Part shown: in pieces, positions 5,477 through 40,246 of the stretch | Layout: each line of letters begins with the position of its first letter | How positions within the stretch are numbered: the first letter of the stretch is position 1 | Assembly (NCBI GenBank): GCA_019636755.1 | Contig: JAHBWZ010000002.1 | Coordinates: 372,001 to 436,000 of the forward strand | Direction: 5' to 3' | DNA: 64,000 nucleotides | Source of the DNA: Phycisphaeraceae bacterium | Lineage (GTDB): Bacteria; Planctomycetota; Phycisphaerae; Phycisphaerales; SM1A02 | Made by a program: the position numbers and the translations under genes | Notes under the pieces: model-generated | What the model was told of the DNA's origin: nothing | Databases searched by the model: none | The model's input: the letters and a program-made list of their open reading frames with translations, nothing else

Positions 5477-5498
5477 GCGGACACGGCTCCGGCGGACG

Positions 5499-8060: not shown

Positions 8061-8892
8061 GGCCGTTGGCGCTCTGCCCCAGCGGCGGGTTGAGCAGCGC
8101 CCGCAGGGCCTCCCCCGGATCCGGCTCGCGCATGAGCGACTCGCCGACCAGCACGATGTTCACACCGTGGGCCCGGAGTTTCGCAAGATCCTCCGAGGTG
8201 CGGATGCCGGACTCGCTCACCACGATGTGCCGGTCCTCCACCATGTCGAGAATCCGGAACGTGTGCGTGAGATCGGTCTCCATCGTCCGCAGGTTGCGGT
8301 TGTTGATGCCGAGGAGGCAGTAGCCGGCATGGGGGAACCCGATGTGCCGCTTCACCTTGAGCAGGTTCTCGACATCGTGGATCTCGACGAGGGTCGTCAT
8401 CCTGAGTTCCTTCGCCAGGATCATCATGTCCAGGAGTTCGCCCTCGTTCAGCACCTCCGCGATCAGGAGGATGGCATCCGCGCCGGCCGCCCTGGACTCC
8501 CAGACCTGGTACTCGTCGACAATGAAGTCCTTCCGCAGGACCGGCAGTCGGACCGACTGCCGGACCTGCTGGATGTATCCGAGGTGGCCGCCGAAGTAGT
8601 ATTCGTCCGTGAGACAGGAGATCGCCGCCGCACCCGCGGCCTCGTACCGGCGGGCGATGTCCACCGGGTCGAAGTCCGCCCGGATGATGCCTGCCGACGG
8701 ACTGCGCCGCTTGATCTCCGCAATGACACGCGTCGTCCCGCGAAGCCGATCGTCCGCCAGTGCCCCGAAGAAGTTGCGCGGTGCATCCATCGCCCCGGCA
8801 CGGGCCTTGACGACATCGATCGGCGTCGTCGTCCGGGCCCGCGCGACCTCGACCCGTTTCCGCGCGATGATGTTGTCGAGCGTCGGCTTCAT
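8044..8892 (-). CDS. trpC: indole-3-glycerol phosphate synthase
   Basis: TrpC closes the indole ring from CdRP in tryptophan biosynthesis. The 282-residue length fits a stand-alone enzyme. Characteristic segments are all present: IAEIKRRSPSAG with the substrate-binding Lys, FDPVDIARRYEAAGA, SCLTDEYYFGG, LRKDFIVDEYQV with the catalytic Lys, DAILLIAEVL, TTLVEIHDVE, LGINNRNLRTMETD, and VVSESGI near the C-terminus. The start ATG at 8892 (MKPTLDNIIARKRVEV) matches the family. The last 17 bases overlap a glycosyltransferase gene, so trpC is outside a trp operon here. The trpS gene is nearby but on the other strand, separated by a CPBP protease gene. Confidence 0.95.
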   Translation of the reverse strand: MKPTLDNIIARKRVEVARARTTTPIDVVKARAGAMDAPRNFFGALADDRLRGTTRVIAEIKRRSPSAGIIRADFDPVDIARRYEAAGAAAISCLTDEYYFGGHLGYIQQVRQSVRLPVLRKDFIVDEYQVWESRAAGADAILLIAEVLNEGELLDMMILAKELRMTTLVEIHDVENLLKVKRHIGFPHAGYCLLGINNRNLRTMETDLTHTFRILDMVEDRHIVVSESGIRTSEDLAKLRAHGVNIVLVGESLMREPDPGEALRALLNPPLGQSANGHVSEY

Positions 8893-9034
8893 CTGCCTTT
8901 CGATCGTCCGGTCCGCCGGTGCGGCGACAGCATCCGCCGCCGCGCCGGGCGGAGATGGTACCGCGATCGGGGACGCGTCCGGCCCGGGAGCGCCGGTGGT
9001 CGGAACACCGCCGGTTCCCGTCGATGTCATCCCG

Positions 9035-9913
9035 ATGCCGCGGTGGTCGGCCATGGATCTCGCGGTCCTCGCCGCGGCGATCATCGCGCTGGTCGTCGTC
9101 ACCCGCAGGCGCTGGTGGCGCCCGGCGGCCGCCGCGCCCGCCGGTGCACCAGATCCGGTCCTCCGCGCGCCCTCGGTGACGCCGTTCATCCTGCTGACCG
9201 GCCTGCTCTTCGCAGGCGCGCCGATGGCCGTGCTCATCCTGCATGCCCTCGGGATGCCGGTGCAGACCGCGCGAAGCCCGGCGGACCTCGTCGGGCCGCT
9301 CTCGCTGATCTATGCGCTCCAGGCGCCGGTCATCGCCCTCGTCATCCTGCAGCGCATCCGCTCGCGCCCGGCCGCGGGCACGGGCGGCGGTCGCCGCGCC
9401 TGGCGGCAGGCGGCCATCGCCGGGGGCATCGCGCTCGCCTGCACCTGGCCGATCGCGCTCGCGGCGGGGCAGGTGACCGCCAGGCTGATCGTGCTGGCAG
9501 GCGGGCCGGCCCCCGCGCCGCTGGCCCATGAGACGCTCCGCATGATCGTCGGCGCGGAGCGCGATGCGGCCCTGCTGCTGGTCATCGCATTCGTCGTACT
9601 TGCCGCGCCGATTGCAGAGGAGGTGCTCTACCGGGGTCTCATCCAGCCGCTGCTGGAGCGGGCGCTGGGCGGCCATCCCGCGGCCCCGGGCGCCGCCCTC
9701 ATCGCGACCAGTGTGTTCTTCGCCTTCATGCACGTGAGCGTCGCGGAGCCGCACGCGGTCGTCTCGCTCTTCGTGCTCTCCATCGGCTTCGGGCTGGTCG
9801 CGCGGCACACCGGCCGGCTGCGCGCCGCGGTCGTCACCCACGTGCTGTTCAACGCCGGCAACATCGTGCTCGCGATGTCGATCACCGATCCAGTGGCTTC
9901 CGGGCTACATTAG
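9035..9913 (+). CDS. CPBP-family intramembrane metalloprotease
   Basis: A 292-residue polytopic protein with about eight hydrophobic segments. It carries all three CPBP (CAAX protease and bacteriocin-processing) motifs: EExxxR in IAEEVLYRGL, FxxxH in FFAFMHVSV and HxxxN in VVTHVLFNAGN. Glu, His and Asn residues from these motifs form the glutamate-type intramembrane active site. Bacterial members process membrane-bound peptides or confer bacteriocin immunity; the substrate here is unknown. The frame is open upstream to 8609 across trpC, so the start is uncertain; ATG 9035 is chosen just before the first helix (LAVLAAAIIALVVV), and 9053 is possible. It ends 4 bases before trpS, so the two are probably co-transcribed. 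Confidence 0.85.
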   Translation: MPRWSAMDLAVLAAAIIALVVVTRRRWWRPAAAAPAGAPDPVLRAPSVTPFILLTGLLFAGAPMAVLILHALGMPVQTARSPADLVGPLSLIYALQAPVIALVILQRIRSRPAAGTGGGRRAWRQAAIAGGIALACTWPIALAAGQVTARLIVLAGGPAPAPLAHETLRMIVGAERDAALLLVIAFVVLAAPIAEEVLYRGLIQPLLERALGGHPAAPGAALIATSVFFAFMHVSVAEPHAVVSLFVLSIGFGLVARHTGRLRAAVVTHVLFNAGNIVLAMSITDPVASGLH

Positions 9914-9917
9914 CCGC

Positions 9918-11000
9918 ATGCCGAAGACCACCGCATCCACGGCGACACGGCCGCGCGTCCTGACCGGGGATACGCCGACCGGCCAGCTCCACCTGGGGCA
10001 CTACGTCGGCTCGGTCCGTCGCCGCGTCGAACTGCAGGCGTCGCACGAATGCTTCTTCCTGCTCGCGAACATGCACGCATTCACGACCCGCGCGGACCGG
10101 CCGCAGGAGATCCGGCGCGACACACTGGAGATCGTCCGCGACTACCTGGCGATGGGCATCGATCCTGAGCAGTGCAGCATCTTCATCCAGACGGAGATCC
10201 CGGCGATCGCGGAACTGACGTACCTCTTCGCGATGCTCCTGCCGTTCAACCGCGTCATGCGGAATCCCACGCTGAAGGACGAGATCCAGGTCAAGGGCCT
10301 TGGCGAGACGTACTCCTTCGGCTTTCCGCTCTACGCGGTCGGCCAGACCGCGGACATCCTGGCCTTCCGCGCCACCAGCGTCCCCGTGGGCGAGGACCAG
10401 GTGCCGCACATCGAACTCACGCGCGAAGTCGCCCGGCGATTCAACCAGGTGTACTGCGGCGTCTCCGACCAGGCGGAGGACGCGGAGCACGTGGCGCTGG
10501 GCGGCATCTTCCCGGTGCCGCATGCGGACGTCGGACCGATCGGCCGACTGGTCGGCACGGACGGGAAGAACAAGATGTCCAAGTCGCTCGGCAACGCGAT
10601 CTTCGTGACCGATGACCTGAAGACGATCCGGAAGAAGATCGGCGGGCTCTTTACCGGTCGCCAGACGATGACCGAGCCGGGCGACATCAGCAATGCGCTC
10701 TTCGACTATGTCCGCGCGTTCATCCCGGACCGGGCCCGCGTCGAGGAACTGGAGCGGCGCTACGCGGCGGGCGACAACATCGGCGACGGCCACATCAAGG
10801 TGGAAGTCGCCGAGGCGATCGACGCGCTCCTTGCGCCGATGCGGGAGCGCCGCGCCAGGTACGAGGGCCGCGACGACCGGATCCTCGAGATCCTCCGGGC
10901 GGGATGCACGCGCGCCAACGCGGTCTGCGAGGAGACGCTGTCGCTCGCGAAGGAAGCGGCGGGGCTGCGGTTCTTCGACCGTGAACTGCGGTATCGGTGA
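9918..11000 (+). CDS. trpS: tryptophanyl-tRNA synthetase
   Basis: A 360-residue class Ic aminoacyl-tRNA synthetase charging tRNA-Trp. The HIGH-like signature is GQLHLGHYVGS near residue 23 and the KMSKS loop is GKNKMSKSLGN near residue 218. Between them are the conserved NPTLKDE, FGFPLYAVGQTADIL and VGEDQVPHIELTREVARRFN segments for tryptophan and tRNA binding. Length and order are normal for bacterial TrpRS. The ATG at 9918 follows the CPBP stop by only 4 bases, with no clear ribosome binding site, so translation may be coupled. Confidence 0.97.
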   Translation: MPKTTASTATRPRVLTGDTPTGQLHLGHYVGSVRRRVELQASHECFFLLANMHAFTTRADRPQEIRRDTLEIVRDYLAMGIDPEQCSIFIQTEIPAIAELTYLFAMLLPFNRVMRNPTLKDEIQVKGLGETYSFGFPLYAVGQTADILAFRATSVPVGEDQVPHIELTREVARRFNQVYCGVSDQAEDAEHVALGGIFPVPHADVGPIGRLVGTDGKNKMSKSLGNAIFVTDDLKTIRKKIGGLFTGRQTMTEPGDISNALFDYVRAFIPDRARVEELERRYAAGDNIGDGHIKVEVAEAIDALLAPMRERRARYEGRDDRILEILRAGCTRANAVCEETLSLAKEAAGLRFFDRELRYR

Positions 11001-11146
11001 GGCGGCGGCGGGGCACGCCCCCACGGCGACGCGCGGCGGTGCGATCCGACACCGGGATGACGGCCGGCGGACCGCGCGGGGCGGCGCCCGCCGGGGCCGA
11101 CGAGTACAGTGCGTCCGATGTGTGAGCCGTCGTACAGGACCGACCC

Positions 11147-13813
11147 ATGACCGATGCGTATCCGCCGACCGGCACGCTGCGCGACGATGGCGATGACGGC
11201 GTGCCCGGGAAGCCCCCGGGGGAGTCACAGGGCATCCCCGAGGACACGCTCATCGGCAGGACGATCGGCCACTACCGGGTTCGCCGGAAGATCGCTTCCG
11301 GTGGCATGGGCACCGTCTATGAAGCGGTCCAGGAAGCCCCTCGTCGCACCGTCGCCCTGAAGGTGATGAAACCGGGAATCGCCTCGCGTTCGGCGCTTCG
11401 TCGCTTCGAATACGAGTCACAGATCCTGGCGCGGTTGCGCCATCCGGGCATCGCGCAGGTCTTCGAAGCCGGCACGCATGATGACGGCGCCGGGGCGGTG
11501 CCGTATTTCGCCATGGAGTACATCCCGAACGCGAAGCCCATCACCGGATACGCCGTCTCGCGGAGACTCTCCACGCGAGACCGGCTCCGACTGTTCGCGC
11601 AGGTCTGCGACGCGGTCTATCACGGGCATCAGAAGGGAGTCATCCACCGCGATCTCAAGCCGGGCAACATCCTGATCGACTCGAGCGGACAGCCGAAGGT
11701 GATCGACTTCGGCGTAGCCCGCGCCACGGACTCCGATCTGGCCGTCACGACGCTGCAGACGGATGTCGGGCAGCTCATCGGCACACTCCAGTACATGAGT
11801 CCGGAGCAGTGTGATGCGGACCCGCACGATCTCGACATGCGGAGCGACGTGTACGCCCTCGGCGTCGTGCTGTATGAACTGGTCTGCGAGCAGCTTCCAT
11901 ACGACATCAGCCGGGCGGCGCTGTACGAAGCCGCGCGTGTCATCCGGGAGTCCACGCCGCCACGGCTGAGTTCGTTCAACCGGACGCTCCGCGGAGACAT
12001 CGAGACGATCACGCTCAAGGCGCTGGAGAAGGACCGCAATCGGCGGTACCGCAGCGCGGCGGAGTTCGGCGAGGACATCCATCGTTACCTGCAGAACGTG
12101 CCGATCATCGCCCGGCCGCCGTCGATTGCCTACCAGTTCCGTACCTTTGCGCGGCGCAACCGGGCACTCTTCACCGGCGCCGCCGCGGTGCTGCTCGTGC
12201 TCATCGGCGGCCTGGTCGGCATGTCGGCACTGTACGTGCGGGCGGAGCGGGCGCGCGATGCGGAAGCGAGGCATCGGCGCACGGCCGAGGCGCGGGAACA
12301 GGAGACGATCGCCGCTCGCGAGATGGAGGCGGAGTCCGGCCGCCGGATGCTCGTCGAGCGCGATCGCGCCGTCGCGGCGCAGCGGCAGGCACTGCATCGC
12401 CTCGGTGAAGTGAATGCGTTGATCGACGTGATGAACCTGACGCTCTCGACCGGCGTGACGATCGTCAGGAACAGCTCCGGCGGCCCCGCGATCCTCGAAC
12501 TCGAGACCGGGACGACCGGTGACTGGACGCCGGAGCACTGCCGCGCGGTCATGCAGGCCGGCGGCCTGCGCGAAGTCGGCCGGACCGAAGAGGCCGAGTC
12601 GATCCTGGCCGGCGCCCTGGAGGCGATGCCCGCTTCGCACGGCTCACGGGACTCCGCGATGCTGAGGCTGGTCGTGGCGACGCATCTCGCCGAGACGCGC
12701 GTGGCGCTGGAGCGCCATCACGACGCGGAGATCCCCGCGCTGATCTCCCTTCGGCTCCGCGCGTCCGCGTTCCAGGAGGACGATGCGCGGATCCAGGACG
12801 CGGTGCGGATGCTCGCTGCTGTCTACGAGGCCGGCGGTCAGCACGGGAAGCTGGCTGCACTGCAGCGCGACGGGCCTGCGTATCGCATGTGCCCGCCCGT
12901 GGCGGGGCATGACCGCGCGACCGCGATCGGCGCGCTGTGGGACGGACGGCTTGCCGCCCATGATGCGGATGGCGCCCTCTACGGATACGACGCCGAAGAC
13001 GACCGGTGGACGGCCCTGATGCGGATCGACCCGGCGTGCCGCGCCGCGGCCACGGCGCGGACCCGGCCGTTCGTCGCCGCCTTCGATCCGGCGGGAGAGG
13101 TGCACCTCCTCGATGCCGACTCCGGACGGCGCCTCGGGGCGATCGCCGGGGAGGGCGTTCCCGTCGAAGGGGTGTTCTCCCCCGACGGAACGCGCCTGGC
13201 GGTCGTGACGACGCCGCCATGGGATCGCTCGGGTGTCGGGGCGGAGTCGCGACTGTCGGTCTACCGGGTGCCGTCGCTGGAGCGCATCCTTGACACGCGG
13301 CTGCCGCGAGCCGGCACGCGGTACGGTTCGATCGACTGGCAGGGTGATGTGATCGCGGTCGCCGTCCATCATCAGCACGAGGCTGTGGTCATCATCGAGG
13401 CCGCAACGGGCGCGCAACGCGGGGAGATCGCCGGATCAGGCGTGCTCTCCGTGCGCCTCTCTCCCGACGGCACGATGCTTGCACTGGGACTGGCGCCGAC
13501 CGGGGTCGTGCTCTGGAACCTCGCCGACAGGGTCGATCGTCGCCTGGACGGACACAGCAACTGGGTCTCCGCGCTCGCGTTCACCGCCGATGGCCGGATG
13601 CTCGCAACGGGCGCGGGCGACAGCACCATCCGGACCTGGGACGTCCAGAGCGGCATGTGCATGCGCGTCATTCCGACGGGCTTCCTGCACAGGAATGAGT
13701 ACACCTTCTCGCTTCACTTCGTTGATCGCGGCGGAACCCTGCTGCTTGCCTCGTCCGGCCGGACCGGAACGAACCTGTGGGACCTGACCGCGGACTGCAC
13801 CGAACCGCGCTGA
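11147..13813 (+). CDS. membrane Ser/Thr protein kinase with WD40-like sensor
   Basis: An 888-residue Hanks-type kinase. A short acidic N-terminus leads to the kinase domain (about 43-315): glycine loop ASGGMGTVYEA (50-60), catalytic Lys72 in VALKVM, HRDLKPGN (167-174), DFG at 187-189 and SPEQ in the activation segment. Residues 341-363 (LFTGAAAVLLVLIGGLVGMSALYV) form one membrane helix, followed by a charged coiled-coil-like stretch (about 364-430). The outer 450 residues include a helical part and then beta-propeller repeats of WD40 type (VEGVFSPDGTRLAVVT, VLSVRLSPDGTMLALG, WVSALAFTADGRMLATGAGDSTIRTWD). The architecture suggests that an extracytoplasmic propeller senses a signal and controls substrate phosphorylation inside. 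The start ATG has AGGA 8 bases upstream. It is a single-gene unit. Confidence 0.92.
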   Translation: MTDAYPPTGTLRDDGDDGVPGKPPGESQGIPEDTLIGRTIGHYRVRRKIASGGMGTVYEAVQEAPRRTVALKVMKPGIASRSALRRFEYESQILARLRHPGIAQVFEAGTHDDGAGAVPYFAMEYIPNAKPITGYAVSRRLSTRDRLRLFAQVCDAVYHGHQKGVIHRDLKPGNILIDSSGQPKVIDFGVARATDSDLAVTTLQTDVGQLIGTLQYMSPEQCDADPHDLDMRSDVYALGVVLYELVCEQLPYDISRAALYEAARVIRESTPPRLSSFNRTLRGDIETITLKALEKDRNRRYRSAAEFGEDIHRYLQNVPIIARPPSIAYQFRTFARRNRALFTGAAAVLLVLIGGLVGMSALYVRAERARDAEARHRRTAEAREQETIAAREMEAESGRRMLVERDRAVAAQRQALHRLGEVNALIDVMNLTLSTGVTIVRNSSGGPAILELETGTTGDWTPEHCRAVMQAGGLREVGRTEEAESILAGALEAMPASHGSRDSAMLRLVVATHLAETRVALERHHDAEIPALISLRLRASAFQEDDARIQDAVRMLAAVYEAGGQHGKLAALQRDGPAYRMCPPVAGHDRATAIGALWDGRLAAHDADGALYGYDAEDDRWTALMRIDPACRAAATARTRPFVAAFDPAGEVHLLDADSGRRLGAIAGEGVPVEGVFSPDGTRLAVVTTPPWDRSGVGAESRLSVYRVPSLERILDTRLPRAGTRYGSIDWQGDVIAVAVHHQHEAVVIIEAATGAQRGEIAGSGVLSVRLSPDGTMLALGLAPTGVVLWNLADRVDRRLDGHSNWVSALAFTADGRMLATGAGDSTIRTWDVQSGMCMRVIPTGFLHRNEYTFSLHFVDRGGTLLLASSGRTGTNLWDLTADCTEPR

Positions 13814-18829: not shown

Positions 18830-21664
18830 TCATGGCAATGAGTCCGGCCAGGGTCCCGTGTCCTCGTCCTGCTGGCGCACGCTCATCCGGGATCCTCCGG
18901 TGCCGGACGTCCGACGCGCTCGCGTCGGGCCACGTCGCCAGCGCCAGAACCGCTTCTCCATCGCGATGACAGGCAGGCCCGCCAGGGCAACCAGCGTCGG
19001 GGCAACCCAATCGGCAAGGCTCAGCCGATGAGTATGGAAGAGCCGGTTGAGCGGCGGCAGATAGACGAAGCACAGTTGCAGGACCAGCGCTGTCGTGATC
19101 CCGTAGTACACGTATCTGTTGCTGAAGATTCCGATCCGCCACGCCGATTCCGTCAGCGAACGACAGTTCAGCAGGTAGACCGCCTGGAATACGATGATCG
19201 TGGTAACCGCGATAGTCTGCGACTCAGCAAGTGCGGTGCCGGGATCGATGCCCAGGCGGAGGTCGGTGTGATACTCGTAGTGGAACAGGCCGACGGCGCC
19301 CGCAGCCAGGAGCGCGGCGACAAGGAACGTCCGGCCGACGAGGAAAGCGTCCAGCAGCGGCGCAGCGGCGCTACGCGGGTGGCGCGTCATCACATCCGGT
19401 TCGGGCGCCTCGAAGGCCAGTGGGAGAGCGAGTGTGATCGCCACCACCAGGTTCACCCAGAGGATCTGCACCGGATTGATCGGCATGAGCAGGCGGCCGT
19501 CATGTACCGGGAAGAAAACCACCGCCACAAGGATGATCATCGCCTGGCCCAGGCTCGTGGGCAGCATGAACGTGAGCGACTTGATCAGGTTGTCGTAGAC
19601 TCGGCGTCCTTCCTCTACCGCAGCCTCGATCGATGCGAAGTTGTTGTCTGCGAGCACCATCTCCGCCGCCTCCTGCGCCACCGCGGTGCCTCCGATGCCC
19701 ATGGCGACACCGATGTCCGCGCGCCTGAGTGCCGGCGCATCGTTCACGCCGTCGCCAGTCATGGCCACTACCTCTCCGCAGGCCTGAAGAGCCCTTACGA
19801 GACGCAGTTTGTGCTCAGGCGAGACACGTGCGAAGACGTTGTGCGAACGAGCCAGTTCTTCCAGGTCGACGTCGGAGGCTGTGGCGATCTGCGGGCCGGA
19901 CACCACCGAATCGGCGGGCGCATCGCGTTCGAGCAGGCTCAGTTCGACCGCGATCGCACGCGCCGTATGGGGATGATCTCCGGTGATCATCTTCACAGCG
20001 ATGCCGGCCGTGCGACAGGCGTGAATCGCGCTCGGCACCTCTTCTCGGGGTGGGTCGATCATACCGGCGAGACCGAGGAACCGGAGAGGCGTCGCCGGGG
20101 ACGCGCCGTCGAACTCCCGCAGCGATCCGGGAGCCGGGCCCGAAGCGATCGCCAGAACCCGCATCCCCCTGACAGCCATCTCCTCCACAGCATCATGCAC
20201 AACCACGGGGTCCAGCGGGGCGCCATCGGCCAGAGCGTGACAGAAACCCACCACTCTTTCGGGTGCGCCCTTGAGACAGACCAGCCTGCTGCCGTGGTCG
20301 GCATGGTGCAGCGTCGCCATGTACTGCCGCTCGGAGTCGAAGGGCAGCACGTCGATTCGCGGGTGTCGCTCGCGCAGCGCCTCGTAATCCAGTCCTGCCT
20401 TGCAGGTGGCTACCAGCAGGGCAGCCTCGGTCGGGTCACCAAGGATGCTCCATCGCCCGTCACACCGCACCAGATGAGCGTCGTTGCACAGCGCTGCGGC
20501 GAGCAGCAGCTCCTGGGCTCCCGGTGGAATGCTCTCAACCTTCTTCCCGTTCGCAGTCAGTTCACCCGCAGGCACATAGCCGATCCCGCTGAGACTGTAT
20601 CGCTGTTTCGGCGTACAGAGTGCTTGCACGGTCATCTCGTTGCGGGTCAGCGTCCCAGTCTTGTCGGTGCAGATCACCGTGACACTGCCCAGTGTTTCGA
20701 CGGCCGGAAGACGGCGGATGATGACATTGCGACGCGCCATGCGACGGATCCCGATGGCAGAAGCGATCGTGATGGCGGCGGGCAGGCCTTCCGGAATCGC
20801 GGCCACTGCCAGCGTGATCGCGGCCATCAGACTGTCGATGAGCGGGTACTCCCGCAGCAGTCCTGCCGCCAGGATCAGAAGTGCAACGATGATGATGGCG
20901 GTCGTGATGCCGGCAGCGAGCTTCGCAAGCCGTCGGGCCAGAGGCGTGTCAGGCGCCCTGGTCTCGCCGAGCAGTTCCGAGATCCGGCCCAGCTCCGTAC
21001 GCGTACCCGTAGCGACCGCGATCGCCGTACCGGAGCCGGATGTCACGAGCGTTCCGCCGAACACCATGCACCTGCGGTCGCCGACCGCAGCATCCTGCGG
21101 CACCGGATCGACATGCTTCGGCACGGGAAGCGACTCGCCGGTGAGCGCAGCCTCGTCGGTGTGCAGGTTGTCCAGCTCGATCAGACGGAGGTCCGCGGGT
21201 ATTCTGTCGCCGGCCTGCAGCAGCACCACGTCGCCCGGCACGATCTCGTACGCGGGCACCTGCAGTGGGTCTCCGTCGCAGAGCACCGTGGCGTTCAGGG
21301 GCACCATCCGGCTGAGGGCTGCGATGGCCTCGCCGGCTTTCCTCTCCTGCAGGAATCCCACAACGCTGTTGATGACGACCACCGCGAGGATTACGATCCC
21401 GTCGGTGACTTTTCCGAGAAGCATCGCCGCCACCACCGAGACCAGCAGGATGTAGACGAGCGGCGTGGCCAGCTGGCGCAGCAGAGTCCGCCACGCTCCC
21501 TCACGCCGCGATCGTTCGATGCGGTTCGGTCCGTAGCGAGAGATTCGAGCTTGTGCCTCGGATCGCGACAGGCCCTGCGGACCGGAGTTCAGGAACGGAA
21601 ACATCCGCTCCAGGGGGAGCGAGTGCCAGGCTGTCTGCTGCGGTTCTGCTTCGTCCTTCGGCAT
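18830..21664 (-). CDS. P-type cation-transporting ATPase (Ca2+-type, P2A-like)
   Basis: A 944-residue ion pump. Features in order: N-terminal cation-ATPase domain (WHSLPLERMFPFL...GLSRSEAQARISRYGPN), first hydrophobic pair (about 68-104), actuator domain with TGES (175-178), PEGL in helix 4 (291-294), phosphorylation site DKTGT (334-338), nucleotide-domain KGAPERV, hinge GDGVNDAP, and a C-terminal set of four to six helices. PEGL together with the SERCA/PMR1-like order points to calcium or a related divalent cation. ATG 21664 is chosen because the upstream frame overlaps the attC-like site at 21742-21801; the start is 78 bases past the core of that site. GC content appears lower than in the core genes. 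It may be the last cassette or the chromosomal flank of the decayed integron. Confidence 0.92.
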   Translation of the reverse strand: MPKDEAEPQQTAWHSLPLERMFPFLNSGPQGLSRSEAQARISRYGPNRIERSRREGAWRTLLRQLATPLVYILLVSVVAAMLLGKVTDGIVILAVVVINSVVGFLQERKAGEAIAALSRMVPLNATVLCDGDPLQVPAYEIVPGDVVLLQAGDRIPADLRLIELDNLHTDEAALTGESLPVPKHVDPVPQDAAVGDRRCMVFGGTLVTSGSGTAIAVATGTRTELGRISELLGETRAPDTPLARRLAKLAAGITTAIIIVALLILAAGLLREYPLIDSLMAAITLAVAAIPEGLPAAITIASAIGIRRMARRNVIIRRLPAVETLGSVTVICTDKTGTLTRNEMTVQALCTPKQRYSLSGIGYVPAGELTANGKKVESIPPGAQELLLAAALCNDAHLVRCDGRWSILGDPTEAALLVATCKAGLDYEALRERHPRIDVLPFDSERQYMATLHHADHGSRLVCLKGAPERVVGFCHALADGAPLDPVVVHDAVEEMAVRGMRVLAIASGPAPGSLREFDGASPATPLRFLGLAGMIDPPREEVPSAIHACRTAGIAVKMITGDHPHTARAIAVELSLLERDAPADSVVSGPQIATASDVDLEELARSHNVFARVSPEHKLRLVRALQACGEVVAMTGDGVNDAPALRRADIGVAMGIGGTAVAQEAAEMVLADNNFASIEAAVEEGRRVYDNLIKSLTFMLPTSLGQAMIILVAVVFFPVHDGRLLMPINPVQILWVNLVVAITLALPLAFEAPEPDVMTRHPRSAAAPLLDAFLVGRTFLVAALLAAGAVGLFHYEYHTDLRLGIDPGTALAESQTIAVTTIIVFQAVYLLNCRSLTESAWRIGIFSNRYVYYGITTALVLQLCFVYLPPLNRLFHTHRLSLADWVAPTLVALAGLPVIAMEKRFWRWRRGPTRARRTSGTGGSRMSVRQQDEDTGPWPDSLP

Positions 21665-21741
21665 GCCACCATCTCGGGTCGCTGGGAAACGGGTGGCGGG
21701 TCGGAATTCCGCCGGAATCACATGCCCCTCGGGGCCAGCCA

Positions 21742-21801
21742 GCATAACGCTCGGCATCAGCGGCGGCGCACAGCGCCGTCCGCTTCATGCTGGTGTTCAA
21801 C
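21742..21801 (-). repeat. attC-like integron recombination site 2
   Basis: Read on the - strand, a 60-bp site begins with GTTGAAC, ends with GTTATGC and folds into a long stem: CAGCAT-G-AAGCGG on one arm faces CCGCTG-ATGCCG on the other, with a CGGCGC/GCGCCG core and a short loop. The lone G is unpaired, as the extrahelical base of attC sites is. The arms are almost identical to the site at 23989-24048. The outer boxes deviate by one base each from the RYYYAAC and GTTRRRY consensus. Confidence 0.65.
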
Positions 21802-21865
21802 ACTGCCTCAGAACCCGCGATCAAGTGGATATCCTCCCAGTCAGGACGACGCCAAGGAGGTCAGG

Positions 21866-22180
21866 ATGGCCCGTACGAAGTGACCCCCGCACTCGCTCCC
21901 CACGATCTGGCGATGCCCGGATGAACACTGGGAGAACTTCAACGAGCCGACGCTGCGGCGCCTCGACCCTCCGGCGAAGACGAGGCGAAGCCGCATCGAT
22001 CCACGGCGTGCTCTGGACGGCATGATCTGCCAATTGCGCACGGACTGCCAGTGGCACGCGCTCCCCTGCGAGTTCGGAGGTGATCGTCCGATTCATCGCC
22101 TGTTCCAACGGTGGTTCGCTCGTGGCGTGATCGATGAAGTGTGCGCGCTGCTCGATAGAGCAACATCCTGTCTGCAGATT
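21866..22180 (+). pseudogene. N-terminal remnant of an IS5-type transposase
   Basis: The + frame from ATG 21866 (GGAGG upstream) reads MARTK, then a stop, then continues in the same frame as DEHWENFNEPTLRRLDPPAK and ALDGMICQLRTDCQWHALPC followed by FQRWFARGVIDEVCALL. This is the N-terminal helical part of IS5-type DDE transposases (usual pattern: ALDG-hhh-LRTGCQW-x-x-LP...FxRW). Similarity stops near 22180, shortly before the IS256-like element begins. The C-terminal half of an IS5-type transposase reappears beyond that element at 23521-23718. Confidence 0.7.
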
Positions 22181-22295
22181 CGCGCCGCGGCCCGCTCCTC
22201 CGGGGGCTCAATTGCCGCCCCCGGACCCCGGCTCTCCCCCGGAAGGGCTCCGGGGGCCATGACTGGTGGGCCGGCCGGTGAACATGCATGCGCAG

Positions 22296-23470
22296 GAACT
22301 GAAGTCGGCGGATCATCGTGGCGGTCACGATCCGGACTGCGGGCTGAGGTAGATGCGTGAGGTCGTCCACTCCTCGTCGATCTCCACGACCAGCGCGGTG
22401 ACCAGGCGGAGAAGCGACGCCTCGTTCGGGAAGAGGCTGGCGACGCGGGTTCGTCGAAGCAGTTCGCGGTTGACTCGCTCAAGGCTGTTGATCGTGCGAA
22501 GGCGGCGCTGGTGATGCGTCGGCAGCGCGAAGATGGTCAGTCCCTCCGGGATGGCGGACTCCATCCAGTCGGCGAGTTTCGGCGCCACCTTGCGGTACTT
22601 CGCGGCGATCTCCGCGAGTCGCTGATCGGCCTTCGATCGATCCGGCGCGTTGAAAATCGACCGGATGTCCCGCGCCACGTCCTGTCGCAGGGTGACCCTC
22701 GGGACGTACGCCTGGGCATTGTGCTGCAGATGGAACTGACATCGCTGCCAGGGAATCGATGGCATGGTGGCCATGCGTGCGGACCTGAGACCCGCGTGAT
22801 CGTCGCTGACGATCAGCTCGACACCCGTCATGCCACGCCTCTGGAGCGACTCGAGGAACGACCGCCAGTGAGGCTCCGCCTCGCTCAGTGCGACGCTGGT
22901 TCCCAGGACGGTGCGGTAGCCGTCCGCACGAACACCGGTTGCGATGAGCACGGCACAGTCCCGCACGCTGCCGCCGTGCCGGACCTTCTCGTATCTCGCG
23001 TCGAGGACGAGGTACCTGATGGTGCCGATGTCCCGGTTGCGCCACTGCGCCAGCTGCTCGTCGAGTTCAGCCGCGGCCCGGCTGACCTGCGTGCTGCTGA
23101 CCTCGAGGCCGCACATCTCCTCCAGAACCTTGCGGACGCGCCGGGCCGAGACGCCTCGCGCCTGGGGAACCTGAAGCTGCAGTTCTCCGACACGCGTGGC
23201 CAGAGTCCGGGGCTTGAAGCCGTTGGCATAGCCGCGGCGCTCGGTGGAGCGCTCGTAAGGGCCTGCGCCGAGGGCCTTCTCGCGCTCAAGGGTCATGGCG
23301 AGATCGAGGATGGCGGTGAAGGTCTCGGCGATGGCCCCATCATGAATCCCCTGGTTCCGTGGCTGGCGACGAGTTCCACGCTGTCATTGAGCGCGGTACG
23401 ATCCTGCTGGCGGGTCATTCTGGACTCCTTTGCACTTGGAGAAAGCCAGATGATCCGCCGTTTTCAGAAC
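22296..23470 (-). mobile_element. IS256-family insertion sequence, defective copy
   Basis: Bounded by imperfect terminal inverted repeats at 22296-22320 and 23446-23470; 19 of 25 bases match, with the shared core CGGCGGATCATC. The true ends may lie up to 40 bases further out, because similarity to the fragments at 42 kb continues outward. It contains one transposase gene on the - strand that is frameshifted and internally deleted. It sits inside an older IS5-type element. Confidence 0.75.
22325..23418 (-). pseudogene. IS256-family (mutator-type) transposase, frameshifted and internally deleted
   Basis: From ATG 23418 the frame reads MTRQQDRTALNDSVELVASH and then shifts near 23340 (one base missing in GGGGCCATC); the rest is open to the stop at 22325. 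Intact parts are ERRGYANGFKPRTLATRVGE, VSRAAAELDEQLAQW, the first catalytic Asp in YLVLDARYEKVR, the second in LIVSDDHAG, the WQRCQFHLQHN motif, and the Glu in SLERVNRELLRRT. About 30 residues usual in the family between the QVP strand and the VSxRxVxKVLEE helix are absent; the sequence jumps from LQVPQARG to VSARRVRK. The remnant at 42.2 kb still has that segment (FYPGCMDKESRREKSL). The element is unlikely to move by itself. Confidence 0.85.
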
Positions 23471-23520
23471 CCCTGCTCGGTGCCGGCAGCAGCCTGCGGC
23501 CGGAACCGAATTTACAGACG

Positions 23521-23718
23521 AGACGTTACACGCCCCATCCATCCGTGGCGGTGAGCCAGCGGAAACGAAGGCTGACGGAGGAAGTGTTCGGCTGGATGAA
23601 ACAGGTCGGCGGGCTGCGCCGCGCCCGGGTCTCCGGGCAATGGAAGATCCAGCAACTGGCCGAGATTGCTCTGTCTGCCCTGAACCTGCTGAGAATCGCC
23701 CGGCTGCAGGCGACATAG
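23521..23718 (+). pseudogene. C-terminal remnant of an IS5-type transposase
   Basis: The + frame ends RKRRLTEEVFGWMKQVGG followed by KIQQLAEIALSALNLLRIAR and a stop at 23718. The E-x-x-FGW-x-K motif supplies the third catalytic residue of the DDE triad, and the closing ALNLxRxxxL is usual for the family. Everything between the N-terminal remnant (21866-22180) and this point is replaced by the IS256-like element. The two halves could come from one element or from two related ones. Confidence 0.7.
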
Positions 23719-23875
23719 CACGCGCCAGCCAGTGCCAATCCGGTCAGAATCGTCCCGGACGAGCCTGATCGGAGACGGAAACAACAGATCACGCGGCGAG
23801 AATCGCGGGTTGAAAGGCAAGCGAGGGCCGGAGGGACGAGGTCTCGTGGTCGGACGAGGGGAAGGTCAACAGCCT

Positions 23876-23944
23876 GCTAGCTATCTCGACGCGACAGGCT
23901 CTCAGCTTCCTGAAGTTCTGAATCTCAATAAATGCAATGTTCAT
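23876..23944 (-). pseudogene. 5' fragment of an OLD/RecF-like AAA ATPase gene
   Basis: ATG at 23944, with AGGAG 8 bases upstream, opens MNIAFIEIQNFRKLRACRVEI. This matches the first strand and NFRKL motif that precede the Walker A loop of OLD-family overcoming-lysogenization nucleases and RecF/SMC-like ATPases. The similarity ends near 23876, where IS-related DNA begins, and the following frame soon stops. The start codon is 50 bases from the core of the attC-like site at 23989-24048, as expected for the first gene of a cassette. No C-terminal part of the gene was found before the second attC-like site. Confidence 0.6.
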
Positions 23945-23988
23945 TCAGCATTCTCCTGCGCACTGCCCGAGCGAGTATTGGCTTTGCT

Positions 23989-24048
23989 TTCCAACGCTCA
24001 GCATCAGCGGCGGCGCGTAGCGCCGCCCGCTGCATGCTGTTGTTCGGC
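23989..24048 (-). repeat. attC-like integron recombination site 1
   Basis: A 60-bp site on the - strand, running from GCCGAAC to GTTGGAA. One arm, CAGCAT-G-CAGCGG, pairs perfectly with CCGCTG-ATGCTG on the other, leaving one unpaired G; GGCGGCGC/GCGCCGCC continues the stem around a short loop. The unpaired base and the 7-base end boxes are the hallmarks of attC. The site starts 8 bases after the stop codon of the NACHT-like gene, the normal place for an attC in a gene cassette. Confidence 0.72.
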
Positions 24049-24055
24049 GGCATGT

Positions 24056-26164
24056 TCATGGCACTCCTTGCAGGAACGCCTCAAGTTCCTTCGACGATTT
24101 GTACTGCCGAAGCTGCTGCCAAGAAATCCCAAGCTTCGCGTCGCATCTAGCCGAGTCAACGTAGTAGAACTTCGGATCACTACGGAGGATGCCGTCGCGG
24201 AGGAGTGCGGCGAGAATTCGCCGTCCAAGATCGCCTCGCAAGACGCGTTCATGTTCGATTTTCGCACGGTACTTCGCTAGGCCACCTTTCTTGTGCGAAC
24301 GGAATTCCGACAGGATTCTTCGGAGCCTCCGATACTTTTCCTTCAACGCAGGATCGACGGGTGCGACCGTGAGCTTGTCAACATACTTCGCCAGGGGGTA
24401 ATCGAGCGTGTGCTCGAGACACCGAATCTCCATCCTGCCCGCGCACACGGATACGGCATTGGCATGCCCTTCGGCTTTCTGCGTACTGATAAGCAACCCA
24501 GCATCCTGGTCTGGGTCATCGTCGCCTCGTCGTGGGATCGACCGCACGATGACGTCGGGCGTGTCGATCCGGACACCCTTTGCCGAGATGCTGCAGTCGC
24601 CGATCACCACCAGTGCGGACGCTCCGCCTAACTCTACACGACAAGGAAGCGTCGCGTGCGCATTGACGAGATACGGTCCAAGGGGAATGGCTTCGCTGTC
24701 GAGGATACCCGTGAATGTGAACGTCCGCTCCTGGTTCTTGTCTGGGAACTCGATTTGAATATTCAGTTCCGCAGTGCTCGGTCCCACCTCCCCCGGGTCC
24801 TCCCAACTGTCCCCACTGATGTCGATGGCGATCGCGGCCTCGATGCCGAGGAACTCCGATGACGATTGCATCAGCATATTGAGACACTGCACGCTGATCG
24901 AACGTTGACTGCTAAGCGCAGCCATGACGTACAGGAGGTGATACGTTGGGCGATTCGCATTGGCATACTCGACGGCAAGAGCCCGATACTCCTGCCTGCT
25001 ACTGAGCGCGCAGCGGGCGACTGCCACCGCGCCGAAGACCGCGTTGCGGAGTCGTGTCTCATCGAGAAACGGATGTTCCGGACACCAGCTGGCAACAGCT
25101 GCCTCATACCGTTCGTTCAGCGCACTATCCGCAACCAATTGGACAGGAAACGGCTTGGCGAGTGCTCGAGACAATAGCCGTGCACACTGCTCTTCTCGGT
25201 CATAAAGGGACCGCCGCAGTGATTGAGCGAGTGACCCTCCAACCTCCGTTGCGATGGATTCGATGAAGTTCGGGAGAGCCTTCTCATCGTGCTCCCGATT
25301 GAGCAAATAGTCGGAAATGCGGATGAGAAGGTCGATCTCGACTTGGCCCCCGGTCTGCTCACCCAGGGCCTGTTGAACGCGGTGATAGTTCCTCTCCTCC
25401 CGCAGTAGCGTTGATATGGCGTCAAGCACCGGAGGGTACCCGACAAACGACAGGAACGCGTCCTCGGGCTTGGACGGAGTGGCTGAGAACGCCGCGCTCA
25501 GTCTGTCGAGCACACTGTCTCGCGCGCACTCATAGCTCTGCCTTTGGCTATGGCCGCCGGTGGAGACAAGGGCGTCGATGTAGGTTTTCGCTTGGGGGAG
25601 ATCAAACGGATCGATCTGGACCATTCCAACGTCTATGCCTTTGTCGGCGAGGTAGCACCAAGTGCCGAGAAGTACCTGGCTGCGGCCAAACACGAGTATC
25701 ACGGTGCTTGGCGATCCCTTTGAACGCTCGATCAGATCGTCCAGGAACGCTTCAAATCCTTCCTCCGTCGTCTTCGACCTCCCCTCGTCGATCCCGTCAA
25801 CGATGATTCCGTGGGTTCCGGTTCGAAGGCCCTCCAAGACGGGCCCAACCCTATCGATGGGATAGGCGGTCGTGAGAATGCCGGTCAGTGTGTTGTCACC
25901 GACCGGCTTGTGCTTCGCCAAATCCAAAATAGGCAGCTGAGTGTCAAACGAGAGCGCACGGGCCGTCGTCGTTTTTCCGGCTGCGCCAACGGCCGACACA
26001 ACGATAATGGGCGGCTTCTCTGAAGGAAACTCGATTTTAGAGAAGGCCGGCTCAATGTACGGACTCGGGCGTGTCGATTGCACAAAAAACGAACTGGACC
26101 CGGCCTGAAGTGGTGTCGGAGCCTTTCGCGAGGCTAGGATTGATTTGAGCGTGTAGTACTGCAC
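24056..26164 (-). CDS. NACHT-like STAND NTPase, candidate defence gene in an integron cassette
   Basis: A 702-residue P-loop NTPase. Walker A is GAAGKTTT at 60-67 and Walker B is GIIVDGIDEG at 119-128; the VDGIDE form is typical of NACHT modules. STVILVFGRSQ (about 153-163) is a likely sensor strand. Residues 200-420 are mainly helical, about 470-590 look rich in beta strands (IQIEFPDKNQERTFTFTGIL), and the last 90 residues are basic and helical (KEKYRRLRRILSEFRSHKKG). No nuclease, TIR or protease motif was recognised. The start is GTG 26164 with AGAGGAG 6 bases upstream. GC content is clearly lower than in the core genes. Known NACHT/STAND proteins of bacteria sense phage proteins and trigger cell death; that role is inferred here. 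It is followed at once by an attC-like site. Confidence 0.8.
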   Translation of the reverse strand: MQYYTLKSILASRKAPTPLQAGSSSFFVQSTRPSPYIEPAFSKIEFPSEKPPIIVVSAVGAAGKTTTARALSFDTQLPILDLAKHKPVGDNTLTGILTTAYPIDRVGPVLEGLRTGTHGIIVDGIDEGRSKTTEEGFEAFLDDLIERSKGSPSTVILVFGRSQVLLGTWCYLADKGIDVGMVQIDPFDLPQAKTYIDALVSTGGHSQRQSYECARDSVLDRLSAAFSATPSKPEDAFLSFVGYPPVLDAISTLLREERNYHRVQQALGEQTGGQVEIDLLIRISDYLLNREHDEKALPNFIESIATEVGGSLAQSLRRSLYDREEQCARLLSRALAKPFPVQLVADSALNERYEAAVASWCPEHPFLDETRLRNAVFGAVAVARCALSSRQEYRALAVEYANANRPTYHLLYVMAALSSQRSISVQCLNMLMQSSSEFLGIEAAIAIDISGDSWEDPGEVGPSTAELNIQIEFPDKNQERTFTFTGILDSEAIPLGPYLVNAHATLPCRVELGGASALVVIGDCSISAKGVRIDTPDVIVRSIPRRGDDDPDQDAGLLISTQKAEGHANAVSVCAGRMEIRCLEHTLDYPLAKYVDKLTVAPVDPALKEKYRRLRRILSEFRSHKKGGLAKYRAKIEHERVLRGDLGRRILAALLRDGILRSDPKFYYVDSARCDAKLGISWQQLRQYKSSKELEAFLQGVP

Positions 26165-26167
26165 TTG

Positions 26168-26260
26168 TTACTCCTCTGCCGCCGAACCATTGATTCTGCG
26201 GAATTCCCCATACCACCGTCCTGCGACCATGATATCTGGTTTTCCGCAGAACCTGGCGAG
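26168..26260 (-). pseudogene. C-terminal end of an unknown gene preceding the NACHT-like gene
   Basis: In the - frame ending with TAA at 26168-26170, about 30 residues look coding (LARFCGKPDIMVAGRWYGEF, then RRINGSAAEE and stop). The stop lies 3 bases from the GTG of the NACHT-like gene, an operon-like spacing. Further upstream the same frame becomes Arg/Ser/Pro-rich and unconvincing. It may be the tail of a truncated partner gene or a short leader peptide starting at ATG 26230. No family recognised. Confidence 0.35.
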
Positions 26261-26416
26261 TGAGGAGGATCTGCGGAAAGGGCAGAGCGCGGAATTGCGG
26301 CAGCACCGGTTCGAGCAAGGCTGCAGACAGCCCCCGGGCCCTTTGGAAGCGGTCCGGTCCCCGGGTTTCATCCGGCAGTATGGTCGCCCACGATGACGTT
26401 CCAGGGGCGGTTCACG

Positions 26417-26597
26417 GCTGTAACTCGACGGAAGCACTACGCCCGCCGGACTGAATGGACCTGTCGGGCCTGGATCATGGCCTTGTCGCGATTTCACCGC
26501 GGACCACCCGGATGGCGGCGTCCATCGCAGATGGGCGCGGCGGAGGTCGAGGCGTTTCTCACCCACCGTGCGGTACAACGGCGCATCGCCTCCGCTC
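26417..26597 (+). pseudogene. intI: remnant of an integron integrase (tyrosine recombinase N-terminal domain)
   Basis: About 60 residues resemble the SAM-like N-terminal DNA-binding domain of integron integrases: RRKHYARRTEWTCRAWIMAL, then SRFHRG, then QMGAAEVEAFLTHRAV. The family pattern is RxxHYSxRTExxYxxWIxRF, FH, HPxxMGxxEVexFLxxLA. The catalytic C-terminal domain (R-HxxR-Y) is missing; similarity stops near 26597. It runs on the + strand, away from the cassettes on the - strand, as intI does in integrons. An attI site was not recognised in 26170-26400. Confidence 0.65.
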
Positions 26598-26741
26598 CCC
26601 CTTGCCTGGGAGGATCGCCTTTCGAGCGCATTCCACGAGTTCCGCTTCGCTCCCTTCGACTGCGCTCAGGACTATCGACCGTGGCCCGTTCGGGGCCGAA
26701 GGCGCGTGCATCGCGCCGATTTGCAGACGCGAGCGCGCCGT

Positions 26742-27767
26742 TCAGCGCACCCCCTCAACCACCCCCAGAACCCGCTCCGCCACCCCGTCCCACCGCCACA
26801 GCGCGCTGCGGGCCAGGCCGCGGTCGCGCAGGTCGGCGCGGCGGGGGCCGTCGGTAACCAGGGCGTCGATGGCTTCCGTGAGCGCGGCCGGGTCATCTGG
26901 ATGGACGAGCATGCCCGCGTCGCCCACCACTTCGGGGAGTGCGCCGGCGGCGGTGGCGATGACCGGGGTGCCGCAGGCCATCGCCTCCGCGACCGGGAGT
27001 CCGAATCCCTCGTCGCGTGATGGCATGACCAGCGCGAGCGCGCGGCGGTAGTGGGCTGCCAGCGCTTCGTCGTCGGCGGGTCGGACGAAGTCGACCGCGC
27101 GGCCGACGCCGCACTCGGATGCCCAGCGCCGCGCGTTGTCGGTCATCAGGCCGCAGCAGCGCAGGCGGACGGCGCCGCGGCAGCGGGTCTGCCCGAATGC
27201 CTTGAGCAGGAGGGGGAGGTTCTTGTGCGGCTTCTCGCTGCCGACGAAAAGGAGGTACGGCGCTTCCGATGGCATCGTCGCCGGGCCGGAGGCGGAGCGC
27301 GGCGTCGGCGTGAACGCGGCGCTGACGCCGTTGCCGACGACGACGCACCGGTCGCCGGGCAGGCCGGCCCAGGCGCAGAGGCGCTGCTTCGAGTGCTCAG
27401 AGACGGTCAGCACGCGCGCGGCGCGGCGGGCCGCGGGTCGGACGACGGCCGCGTAGAACGCGCGCTTGGCCATCGATCGCTCGTCCGGGTCATCCAGGTG
27501 GATGAGGTCATGGATCGTCAGCACGACCGGCATGCGCCTCGGCGCGGGCAGCGGCGCGACGAACCCGGGCGTGAAGAACACGTCTGCGCGCACGCGGCGG
27601 CAGCCGAGCGCCAGGCGCAGCGGCGAGAACGGCCGGGCGGGATGGCCGCGCACGGGGACGGGCACCGCGCCGGGCAGGCGCGCGATCACTTCCCTCGCGA
27701 AGCGACCGATGCCGTGCGGGCCGATCCACCGCGCATCGACCGCGATTCTCGAGGATCCGTCGCTCAT
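26742..27767 (-). CDS. GT4 glycosyltransferase
   Basis: A 341-residue GT-B fold glycosyltransferase of family 4, adding a sugar during exopolysaccharide or O-antigen assembly. N-terminal acceptor domain: IAVDARWIGPHGIGRFAREV and VVLTIHDLIHL; linker strand VLTVSEHSKQRL. The C-terminal nucleotide-sugar domain has LLFVGSEKPHKNLPLLLKAF and the E-x7-E motif in SRDEGFGLPVAEAMACGTPV, then GALPEVVGDAG. The pattern is close to mannosyl- or rhamnosyltransferases. The ATG overlaps the stop of the upstream gene as ATGA. It is the last gene of a three-gene - strand unit. Confidence 0.9.
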   Translation of the reverse strand: MSDGSSRIAVDARWIGPHGIGRFAREVIARLPGAVPVPVRGHPARPFSPLRLALGCRRVRADVFFTPGFVAPLPAPRRMPVVLTIHDLIHLDDPDERSMAKRAFYAAVVRPAARRAARVLTVSEHSKQRLCAWAGLPGDRCVVVGNGVSAAFTPTPRSASGPATMPSEAPYLLFVGSEKPHKNLPLLLKAFGQTRCRGAVRLRCCGLMTDNARRWASECGVGRAVDFVRPADDEALAAHYRRALALVMPSRDEGFGLPVAEAMACGTPVIATAAGALPEVVGDAGMLVHPDDPAALTEAIDALVTDGPRRADLRDRGLARSALWRWDGVAERVLGVVEGVR

Positions 27768-28900
27768 CGCGCGCCCGCCGGCAGCAGGGGTGCGGGTTCG
27801 GGTGCGCCGGCGATCGCACGGGCCAGGTCATCCCACGACCAGACGCCGTCGGGCGGCAGCGCGGCGCGATCCATCGCCTGAGCCGCATCCAGGGCGCGAC
27901 CGATCGATGCACGATCGCCCGGCACATACGTCACCCAGTTCGGCCGCGCTGAGACCAGGAACTCCGGCGCGATGACCGGGAGTCGACAGCAGGTGTACTG
28001 CATCACCTTGAGACTGTCGACCAGGCTTTCGGCGCCGGGCTCGTAGAGCCGTGCCTGGAGTCCCGCATCGGCGTGGCGGATGTACGGCACGGTCTGCTCG
28101 AACGGCATCTCGCCGTACGTCCGGATGCGCGGATGCGCCGGGACACCGTGCAGCGGACCGATGACATGGAACGTCCACGCCGGACGGACCTCCGCCGCGA
28201 TCTCCAGGAAGCGCGTGTCCAGCATGCTCGTCCCCACGAAGACGGCGTGCGGGCCCCCGGTGCCGTACGGTGACTCGGACGGCGCCTCGAAGAGGTCGCG
28301 CCGCACGCCGTGCGGCTGGACGGCGGCATTCGGCACGGGCGGAAATCGCTTCAGCAGCGCCGCGGTCGGCACGCTCACCAGGTCCGCGCACCGCATCAGG
28401 TCCGCTTCCGCCTCGAGCACGACCGGATGGTTGCGCAGCAGCGTGAGATCGTCCGCCATGCGGTAGACCAGTCGCGCCCGCGGCGCCAGCCGTCGCAGGC
28501 GCGGCGCCAGCAGCAGGGCGGGCGTGCTCTCGAAGAGCAGCAGGTCCGCGCCGGCGACCAGCGGCTCCAGTTCACCGAGCGGGAACCGCGCGTATCGCCG
28601 GAAGAGCGGCGCCGACCACCGGTTGAGCCGGGCGCTCCGCAGGTTGGCGGGATGCCACGGCGTGTACCAGACGAAACTCGCGAGCCGATCGCCGACCCAC
28701 CGCACCTTCCCCGCTTGGGCGCGGACCGGGTACGCGAATCGGAAGTCGCGGCGCAGGCGCGACAGGTGACTCAGCGCGCCGGTGACGAAGATGACCTCCC
28801 AGCCGGCACGGACGAATGCGTCCGCCACCCAGTGCGCCCCGGCGCGGCGGTCGGACTGGAGGTAGTGCAGCGTGACCAGGATGAGCCTGCGTGCGCTCAC
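27764..28900 (-). CDS. GumK-like glycosyltransferase
   Basis: A 378-residue GT-B glycosyltransferase. The N-terminus LVTLHYLQSDRRAGAHWVAD followed by GWEVIFVTGALS resembles GumK (family GT70), the glucuronosyltransferase of xanthan assembly. Further support comes from LLLFESTPALLLAPRL, RLVYRMADDLTLL, SVPTAALLKRFP, FVGTSMLDTRF, FHVIGPLHG and the C-terminal ESLVDSLKVMQYTCCRLPVI donor-binding segment. The donor sugar is unproven. The start is a GTG overlapping the FkbM stop (GTGA), and the gene overlaps the next one by 4 bases, so all three are translationally coupled. Confidence 0.8.
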   Translation of the reverse strand: MSARRLILVTLHYLQSDRRAGAHWVADAFVRAGWEVIFVTGALSHLSRLRRDFRFAYPVRAQAGKVRWVGDRLASFVWYTPWHPANLRSARLNRWSAPLFRRYARFPLGELEPLVAGADLLLFESTPALLLAPRLRRLAPRARLVYRMADDLTLLRNHPVVLEAEADLMRCADLVSVPTAALLKRFPPVPNAAVQPHGVRRDLFEAPSESPYGTGGPHAVFVGTSMLDTRFLEIAAEVRPAWTFHVIGPLHGVPAHPRIRTYGEMPFEQTVPYIRHADAGLQARLYEPGAESLVDSLKVMQYTCCRLPVIAPEFLVSARPNWVTYVPGDRASIGRALDAAQAMDRAALPPDGVWSWDDLARAIAGAPEPAPLLPAGAR

Positions 28901-40212: not shown

Positions 40213-40246
40213 GCCCGAACAAAACCCGATCGCCGAGAAGCCGGAG

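Follow-up and report, generated by a model that had tools for sequence, protein, structure and literature searches.

A probable remnant of a chromosomal integron with a NACHT-type STAND NTPase gene as its first cassette in a Phycisphaeraceae genome

The window analysed here is a stretch of 64 kb (G000:C12:372001-436000; positions below are those of the window unless a contig or locus is named) from the genome of a Phycisphaeraceae bacterium (4.11 Mb, 20 contigs, 99.4% complete), and judged from its sequence it almost certainly holds the remnant of a chromosomal integron. A truncated integrase gene (intI′), an attI crossover, two attC sites, the boundaries of an intact cassette and NACHT motifs are recognizable there. 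On the − strand, reading downwards from 26.6 kb, intI′ (itself on the + strand) is followed by a leader of 206 bases, a gene of 702 codons, the site attC1 and the start of a second cassette, and beyond this start by remnants of insertion sequences (IS), the site attC2 and a P-type ATPase gene. This is the order and orientation of an integron that the earlier note had recognized, with intI on one strand and the cassettes on the other, pointing away from it. The full explanation, in which a decayed integron keeps an intact cassette for a NACHT-type protein that is likely a phage sensor, is highly probable. In the proposed course of events, IntI would once have integrated gene cassettes, as circles, at attI. 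Later, intI would have been truncated after codon 64, and the part of the array that follows cassette 1 would have been disrupted by IS elements. The cassettes would now be frozen unless IntI arrives in trans.

First, the integrase remnant was assigned from profile matches and from a comparison of IntI and Xer proteins. intI′ (26393..26584, +) is the 5′ remnant of an integron integrase gene, diverges from the cassettes and comprises the first 64 of about 320 codons. The ORF with 26393-26584 matches the NCBIfam integron integrase profile TIGR02249 at 1.8e-6 and 27.6 bits over about one fifth of the profile, far below its cut-off of 265 bits, and it matches Pfam PF13495 at 7.2e-9, above the cut-off of that family. 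The best match of the fragment is the intact IntI of a genome of the same family, G005 (67% over 64 aa, 89.4 bits). The comparison set consisted of 10 IntI and 12 Xer-type proteins, whose reading frames had been checked, where "Xer-type" is our label for below-cut-off TIGR02249 matches, which are present in all genomes. All 10 IntI rows (21.9 to 89.4 bits) outscore every Xer-type row (best 18.5 bits; one of the 12 proteins gave no row). The earlier note had proposed an integrase remnant on the opposite strand and had called for the fragment at 26.4 kb to be compared with IntI and with Xer or phage integrases; the fragment proved to be the N-terminal 64 aa of an IntI-type protein and IntI-like, not Xer-like. 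The extra domain specific to IntI, whose motif is seen in seven of eight IntI rows compared, lies outside these 64 aa, and the catalytic R, H-R and Y are absent from the fragment, which stops at codon 64. The genome yielded no intact IntI: all its TIGR02249 matches are below 265 bits, the best (86.8 bits) coming from a further truncated copy, on contig C15. Because the fragment ends at codon 64 and the genome has no IntI above the cut-off, the integron is taken to be decayed and not active, which agrees with the proposal that it lost its integrase. A repeat of about 134 bases (26587-26720) abuts the intI remnant and has more than 10 other copies in the genome, at 69-84% identity.

Between intI′ and the crossover lies the attI leader (26187..26392, −), which contains repeats of TCTGCGGAA / TTCCGCAGA. 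The attI crossover is placed at G26187^T26186 with the core GTTCGGC. The first cassette would be expressed from this leader, within which no sigma-70-like promoter was found. A search of the genome with the leader returned two further copies, at C15:345901-346306 (89%) and C15:249529-249936 (83%). In the three-way alignment, similarity stops at the GTT (...CAATGGTT), and from there on the cassettes differ from locus to locus. A worn and shorter fourth copy of the attI-proximal leader is found at C15:275207-275261 (L135:4208-4262), together with a trace of intI that, judged by eye, breaks off at almost the codon at which intI ends in the window and at the C15:249529 locus. Three of the four copies stop within about 10 bases of each other inside intI (by eye). 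These shared ends, which the data leave unexplained, hint at an unknown way of copying attI leaders. An origin of the leaders by recombination at a GTT inside intI was considered and rejected, because the similarity of the C15:249529 copy continues past that GTT.

With the leader as query, at least 10 of the 101 genomes, the host included, gave a match among the best six candidates at most per genome. Outside the host genome, the matches listed are all in the intI part, the strongest being those of G005, G062, G024 and G083 (71-76%). That a unit of about 405 bases, from the truncated intI to the attI crossover, was multiplied within the genome by a route that may be new is very doubtful from the sequences at hand; if it is true, the genome has several integrase-less docking sites, three good ones of which are each loaded with a first cassette of their own. 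The separate acquisition of three related integrons, in place of the copying of one leader within the genome, is quite possible, if short of probable, since the leader copies are 11-17% apart, their left flanks have no mutual similarity and their cassettes differ, but the copies resemble one another (83-89%) more than the intI part of G005 (69-74%), and none of the other 100 genomes gave a match to the non-coding attI part among the six candidates at most that were scored in each. Our literature search for multiple attI sites returned unrelated work only. Whichever way the leaders arose, the presence in one genome of several attI leaders that lack an integrase raises the question of how integron heads are copied and whether a frozen attI may be served in trans.

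Both of the good leader copies on contig C15 are followed by arrays. The second integron of the genome (G000:C15:345901-351861; L024:7902-13862) has a truncated intI, an attI and six attC-bounded cassettes. Its first cassette encodes a TIR protein (PF10137; PADLOC PDC-S35, 7.1e-78), its third a PDC-M34A/B pair (1.8e-71 and 2e-69), and its fifth a protein of EVE-HNH type that matches mREase_IV weakly. The ORFs at L024:12277-12951 and 12948-13742 have no Pfam or PADLOC match, and that at 10957-11295 has no Pfam match. The third leader locus (G000:C15:249529-252640; L023:9530-12640) has a first cassette for a 617-aa protein without a family match and with a vWA-like C-terminus (by eye); behind it stand a single attC, a gene with weak AbiGi-like similarity and, last, a transposase named by eye as IS630-type.

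Second, both attC sites of the window, attC1 (23989..24048, −) and attC2 (21742..21801, −), were found by a hairpin finder and by covariance models. Model R1 was trained on five attCs from the two C15 loci, the window sites being excluded, and was run on the window with filters off. Among its 31 matches with E up to 5 (these E-values are rough), attC1 (33.8 bits) and attC2 (28.9 bits) rank first and second, and the third match has 15.8 bits. A covariance search was the check for which the earlier note had called, and the two attC-like sites it had proposed were thus both recovered by a model trained elsewhere in the genome. With its final thresholds the hairpin finder returned attC1 and attC2 alone within 64 kb, and 100 dinucleotide shuffles gave a mean of 0.31 matches and a maximum of 2; these thresholds were fixed after the sites were known, and an earlier, looser run gave many more hairpins in the window. 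By eye, both sites follow the same attC plan of R″ arm, two bases, stem, short loop, AGC and R′ arm, each stem having two unpaired bases, so that the R″, L″, L′ and R′ arms and the extrahelical bases are all present. A search for the attC core pattern returned the two sites and two matches with three mismatches, which are taken as chance because the reversed control also gave two. In the whole-genome attC searches, which scored the best 150 of 8,034 and the best 150 of 11,772 candidates and are not an inventory, the matches listed are sites of contig C15 only, the window sites not being among them. An Rfam scan at gathering scores returned no attC match. We know of no attC family in Rfam. As had been claimed, attC1 stands directly behind the stop of the 702-codon gene, but at a distance of 7 bases and not 8.

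Third, the cassette boundaries were compared with a rule on core pairing. In an integrated array, the core at the start of a cassette should complement the first arm of its own attC. Cassette 1 (23995..26186, −) is intact: at its start stands the core GTTCGGC, which is complementary at 7/7 positions to GCCGAAC, the first arm of attC1. For the eight cassettes of this genome with both ends known, seven match 7/7 (five of six at L024, the only one at L023, and cassette 1 of the window) and the eighth matches 6/7. In a same-site control, where a first arm was paired with the core present in the same attC, none of the eight pairs was perfect, and shuffled pairings of cores and arms gave at least seven perfect matches in 17 of 100,000 trials. 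Of 20 pairs from relatives and from loci of homologs, 13 match 7/7; this set includes the first row of L051, where a clipped core (3/7) is a script artefact. The earlier note had described several cassettes, of which cassette 1 alone is intact.

Behind attC1, the second cassette start (23881..23944, −) is broken off after about 22 codons. Its ATG at 23944 lies about 50 bases beyond the attC1 core, where the earlier note had placed a new start codon. By eye and by weak matches it resembles the N-terminus of an AAA/OLD-type ATPase; the matches are at E 4 to 7 only, and five of nine are annotated AAA ATPase. The sequence between attC1 and attC2 is IS wreckage. It contains an IS256-family transposase gene lacking its N-terminus (22325..23296, −; profile matches) and an IS5-type DDE transposase remnant (23533..23697, +), the latter below Pfam cut-offs and with its family named by eye. 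Cassette 1 has a GC content of 58% against 70% in the window, and both the accumulation of IS elements and the drop in GC that had been noted in this interval are borne out. attC2, with which the row of attCs in the remnant ends, agrees with the cassette start behind attC1 at only 4/7, and this stretch is not among the eight cassettes above. Because the stretch fails the core rule, attC2 seems to stem from another cassette, now lost; no matching cassette start was found here. The idea of a broken cassette followed by a second attC thus stands as to the broken-off start, but attC2 does not belong to that start, and IS wreckage lies between them. Next to attC2 is the gene of a P-type, calcium-type ATPase (18830..21757, −; profile match). 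At an E limit of 1e-200, three of 40 relatives encode a close homolog of it, the best at 49%. Its status as a cassette was considered and is unsupported, as the core after attC2 has no partner arm (GCATAAC) on the − strand of the window and no attC match lies beyond the gene. A gene after the second attC, as the earlier note had it, is therefore present but has no attC of its own that we could find.

The layout of the window recurs in relatives that still have an integrase. IntI above the cut-off is found in 8 of 60 relatives (the host genome apart), and two more genomes of the same family, which came up as matches to the leader's intI portion, encode an IntI that is 81-83% identical to that of G005. 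An intact IntI with attCs upstream on the other strand, as in the divergent layout of the window, is seen at L051 (seven sites), L052, L054, L136, L137 and L138. The layout differs at L049, where the contig ends nearby and the attC is on the intI strand, beyond the 3′ end of intI. One relative has two IntI genes above the cut-off (G022:C121 and G022:C152), and at the former an attC lies on the strand of intI, past its 3′ end. The integron reading of the window is supported because attC matches exist at both sites and the integrase fragment is IntI-like, and further because the leaders end at the attI crossover, the core of cassette 1 fits 7/7 and six relatives have the same layout.

The gene in cassette 1 (24056..26164, −) encodes a NACHT-type STAND NTPase of 702 aa. 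It starts with GTG, with a purine-rich GAGGAG just upstream, and ends with TGA at 24058-24056. STAND proteins are sensors that oligomerise upon binding a cue. The protein has no match in Pfam (0 families, and thus none to the NACHT family), NCBIfam or PADLOC, and the best E against PDB sequences is 0.4. It contains Walker A and a NACHT-type Walker B (hhhhDGhDE), of which the Walker A lysine and the Walker B D..DE are invariant in 46 aligned sequences; this invariance is in part a product of the genome scan that collected the homologs, which selected on Walker A/B motifs. The family, of about 700 aa, also has a nearly invariant F-R-x-H motif. In its 46 members, Pfam finds NPHP3_N in five, AAA_16 in four and nSTAND3 in two, and PADLOC PDC-S01 gives weak matches in 13 (best 4.7e-5). 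An AlphaFold2 model from the 46-sequence alignment has a mean pLDDT of 87.6 and a beta-rich region near residues 444-597; a model from the single sequence (pLDDT 37.8) was set aside in its favour. For this predicted model, the first match in Foldseek is the NACHT domain of NLRP3 (E 2.7e-5, TM-score 0.30), and the first match in VIA-align is again NLRP3 (Z 11.5, rmsd 3.4 over 216 residues). Since the Z scores of other AAA+ ATPases are as high as 9 to 10, the predicted fold places the NACHT assignment only moderately above them. The "NACHT-like gene" of the earlier note is upheld by NACHT motifs and by this predicted fold.

The genome scan returned 60 homologous loci for this gene. The closest homologs are in Chloracidobacterium (71%), two Acidobacteriota-type metagenome-assembled genomes (MAGs; 64%), a gammaproteobacterial MAG (57%), Deferrisomatales (56%) and Desulfacinum (54-55%), whereas those in the own order (Phycisphaeraceae) reach about 28-29% identity only. 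Among 101 genomes, the gene is found in the host and in one genome of the same order, G052, only; 3 of 72,556 plasmid records and none of 50,697 phage records have a homolog. Because close homologs occur in other phyla, those of the own order share about 28-29% and occurrence is sparse, the sequences point to transfer between phyla. Model R2 places an attC at the end of the NACHT gene in three of the 60 loci: at L064 (7116-7212; gene end 7109), at L068 (2374-2434; gene end 2371) and at L112 (7011-7091; gene end 7016). R2 was trained with these three sites, and the independent model R1 finds all three too (24.5, 33.4 and 24.6 bits, respectively). The attC arms of L068 are nearly identical to those of attC1, and its cassette core fits the attC arm at 6/7. 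At L064, four GTT words lie upstream of the gene, and the best-fitting of them agrees with the attC arm at 6/7. A search for IntI gave no match in L064 or L068. The homolog of L112, in Candidatus Accumulibacter conexus, is distant (20-23%), and the attC pair around it fits at 4/7 only. This locus has six attC matches within 863-11305, the distant homolog being among them, and a candidate tyrosine recombinase near 2542-3354. With the present genome, an attC at the gene end is thus seen in four distant lineages, the others being Chloracidobacterium, Deferrisomatales and Accumulibacter, the last with a distant member.

It is probable that the NACHT-type STAND ATPase is a phage-sensing immune protein with an anti-phage function. 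By analogy with STAND proteins, a phage cue would trigger nucleotide-driven oligomerisation and, through it, anti-phage action. On plasmid CP084174.1 (L063:1846-6043), the NACHT homolog is the last gene in a row of multiubiquitin, ThiF and hypothetical protein genes with a WYL gene adjacent, a row that looks in sequence like a ubiquitin-type defence operon, and another plasmid homolog is near a gene annotated phage abortive infection. The support that such neighbouring defence-type genes lend to a defence role is circumstantial. The "defence-type cassettes" of the earlier note gain support at the level of the genome, where the sister array carries PADLOC candidates, but the defence function of the window gene itself is presumed. 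A role other than phage defence, for example in plasmid exclusion or as a toxin-like regulator, would agree with the lack of a PADLOC match and with the weakness of PDC-S01 in the 13 family members, but is rather unlikely in view of the predicted NACHT fold, the sparse distribution across phyla and the occurrence of defence-type genes both in the sister array and around the plasmid homologs. That the locus is instead an IS-hit defence island without an integron, its hairpins being ordinary inverted repeats and the integrase piece phage- or Xer-derived, is scarcely credible, since the IS pieces and low GC of the interval, the plasmid homologs beside or near defence-type genes and the 57 of 60 homologous loci without attC at the gene, which would suit it, are set against an attC architecture, an IntI-type fragment and cassette cores that all agree with an integron.

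Taking the locus as an integron remnant, it can be compared with known systems. Integrons in Planctomycetes and intI pseudogenes are already described in the accessible parts of two papers (PMC2426708; PMC8352920), and inactive integrons with kept arrays, as well as defence cassettes, in that of a third (PMC12444791). Little was found in print on integrons of Phycisphaerales. As far as the available text of these sources goes, intI is lost or truncated and arrays are kept in the chromosomal integrons of Xanthomonas (PMC12444791) and in the cases of intI pseudogenes (PMC2426708), as here, and in one Xanthomonas group transposases surround the integron locus (PMC12444791). In contrast to these cases, three leaders with truncated intI occur here in one Phycisphaerales genome in which no intact intI was found. 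The locus also resembles a CALIN, a cluster of attC sites lacking an integron-integrase (PMC9024848, in the part available), in having two attCs 2.2 kb apart and no functional integrase; the two attCs were called here by model R1 and not by IntegronFinder's own model, and the IntI match is below the cut-off. Unlike in a CALIN, the head of the element can still be recognized here from attI and the surviving 5′ end of intI. Immune-type genes as cassettes are described in sedentary integrons of Vibrio and in mobile integrons (PMC12444791, in its accessible text), whereas the present cassette is one of 2.2 kb with a NACHT-type STAND ATPase. bNACHT25 (PMC12169576, likewise in the part available) is also a NACHT-type ATPase and a presumed phage sensor; unlike it, the present protein has no Pfam match and belongs to an own family of about 700 aa with the beta-rich region at 444-597 and the F-R-x-H motif. 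A literature search for integrons together with NACHT, which left most subscription journals outside, returned a single paper, which concerns HEPN domains. Two points are less usual here: NACHT-type genes of one family recur as cassettes, and a single genome has several attI leaders without an integrase. A family of NACHT-type, presumably immune genes would thereby be added to the known cargo of integrons, and, with the cassette boundaries at hand, a presumed immune receptor could be cloned and tested with exact ends.

An empty site was sought in 40 relatives, in which the flanking genes were never found together. At the limits used, an ORF of 378 aa (27764-28900) had a match in none of these 40 relatives and a carboxylase-like ORF (named by eye) is present in three. 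Another low-GC stretch of the window, at 40000-42700, contains an IS256-like fragment (42048-42509, by eye) and ORFs without an assignment.
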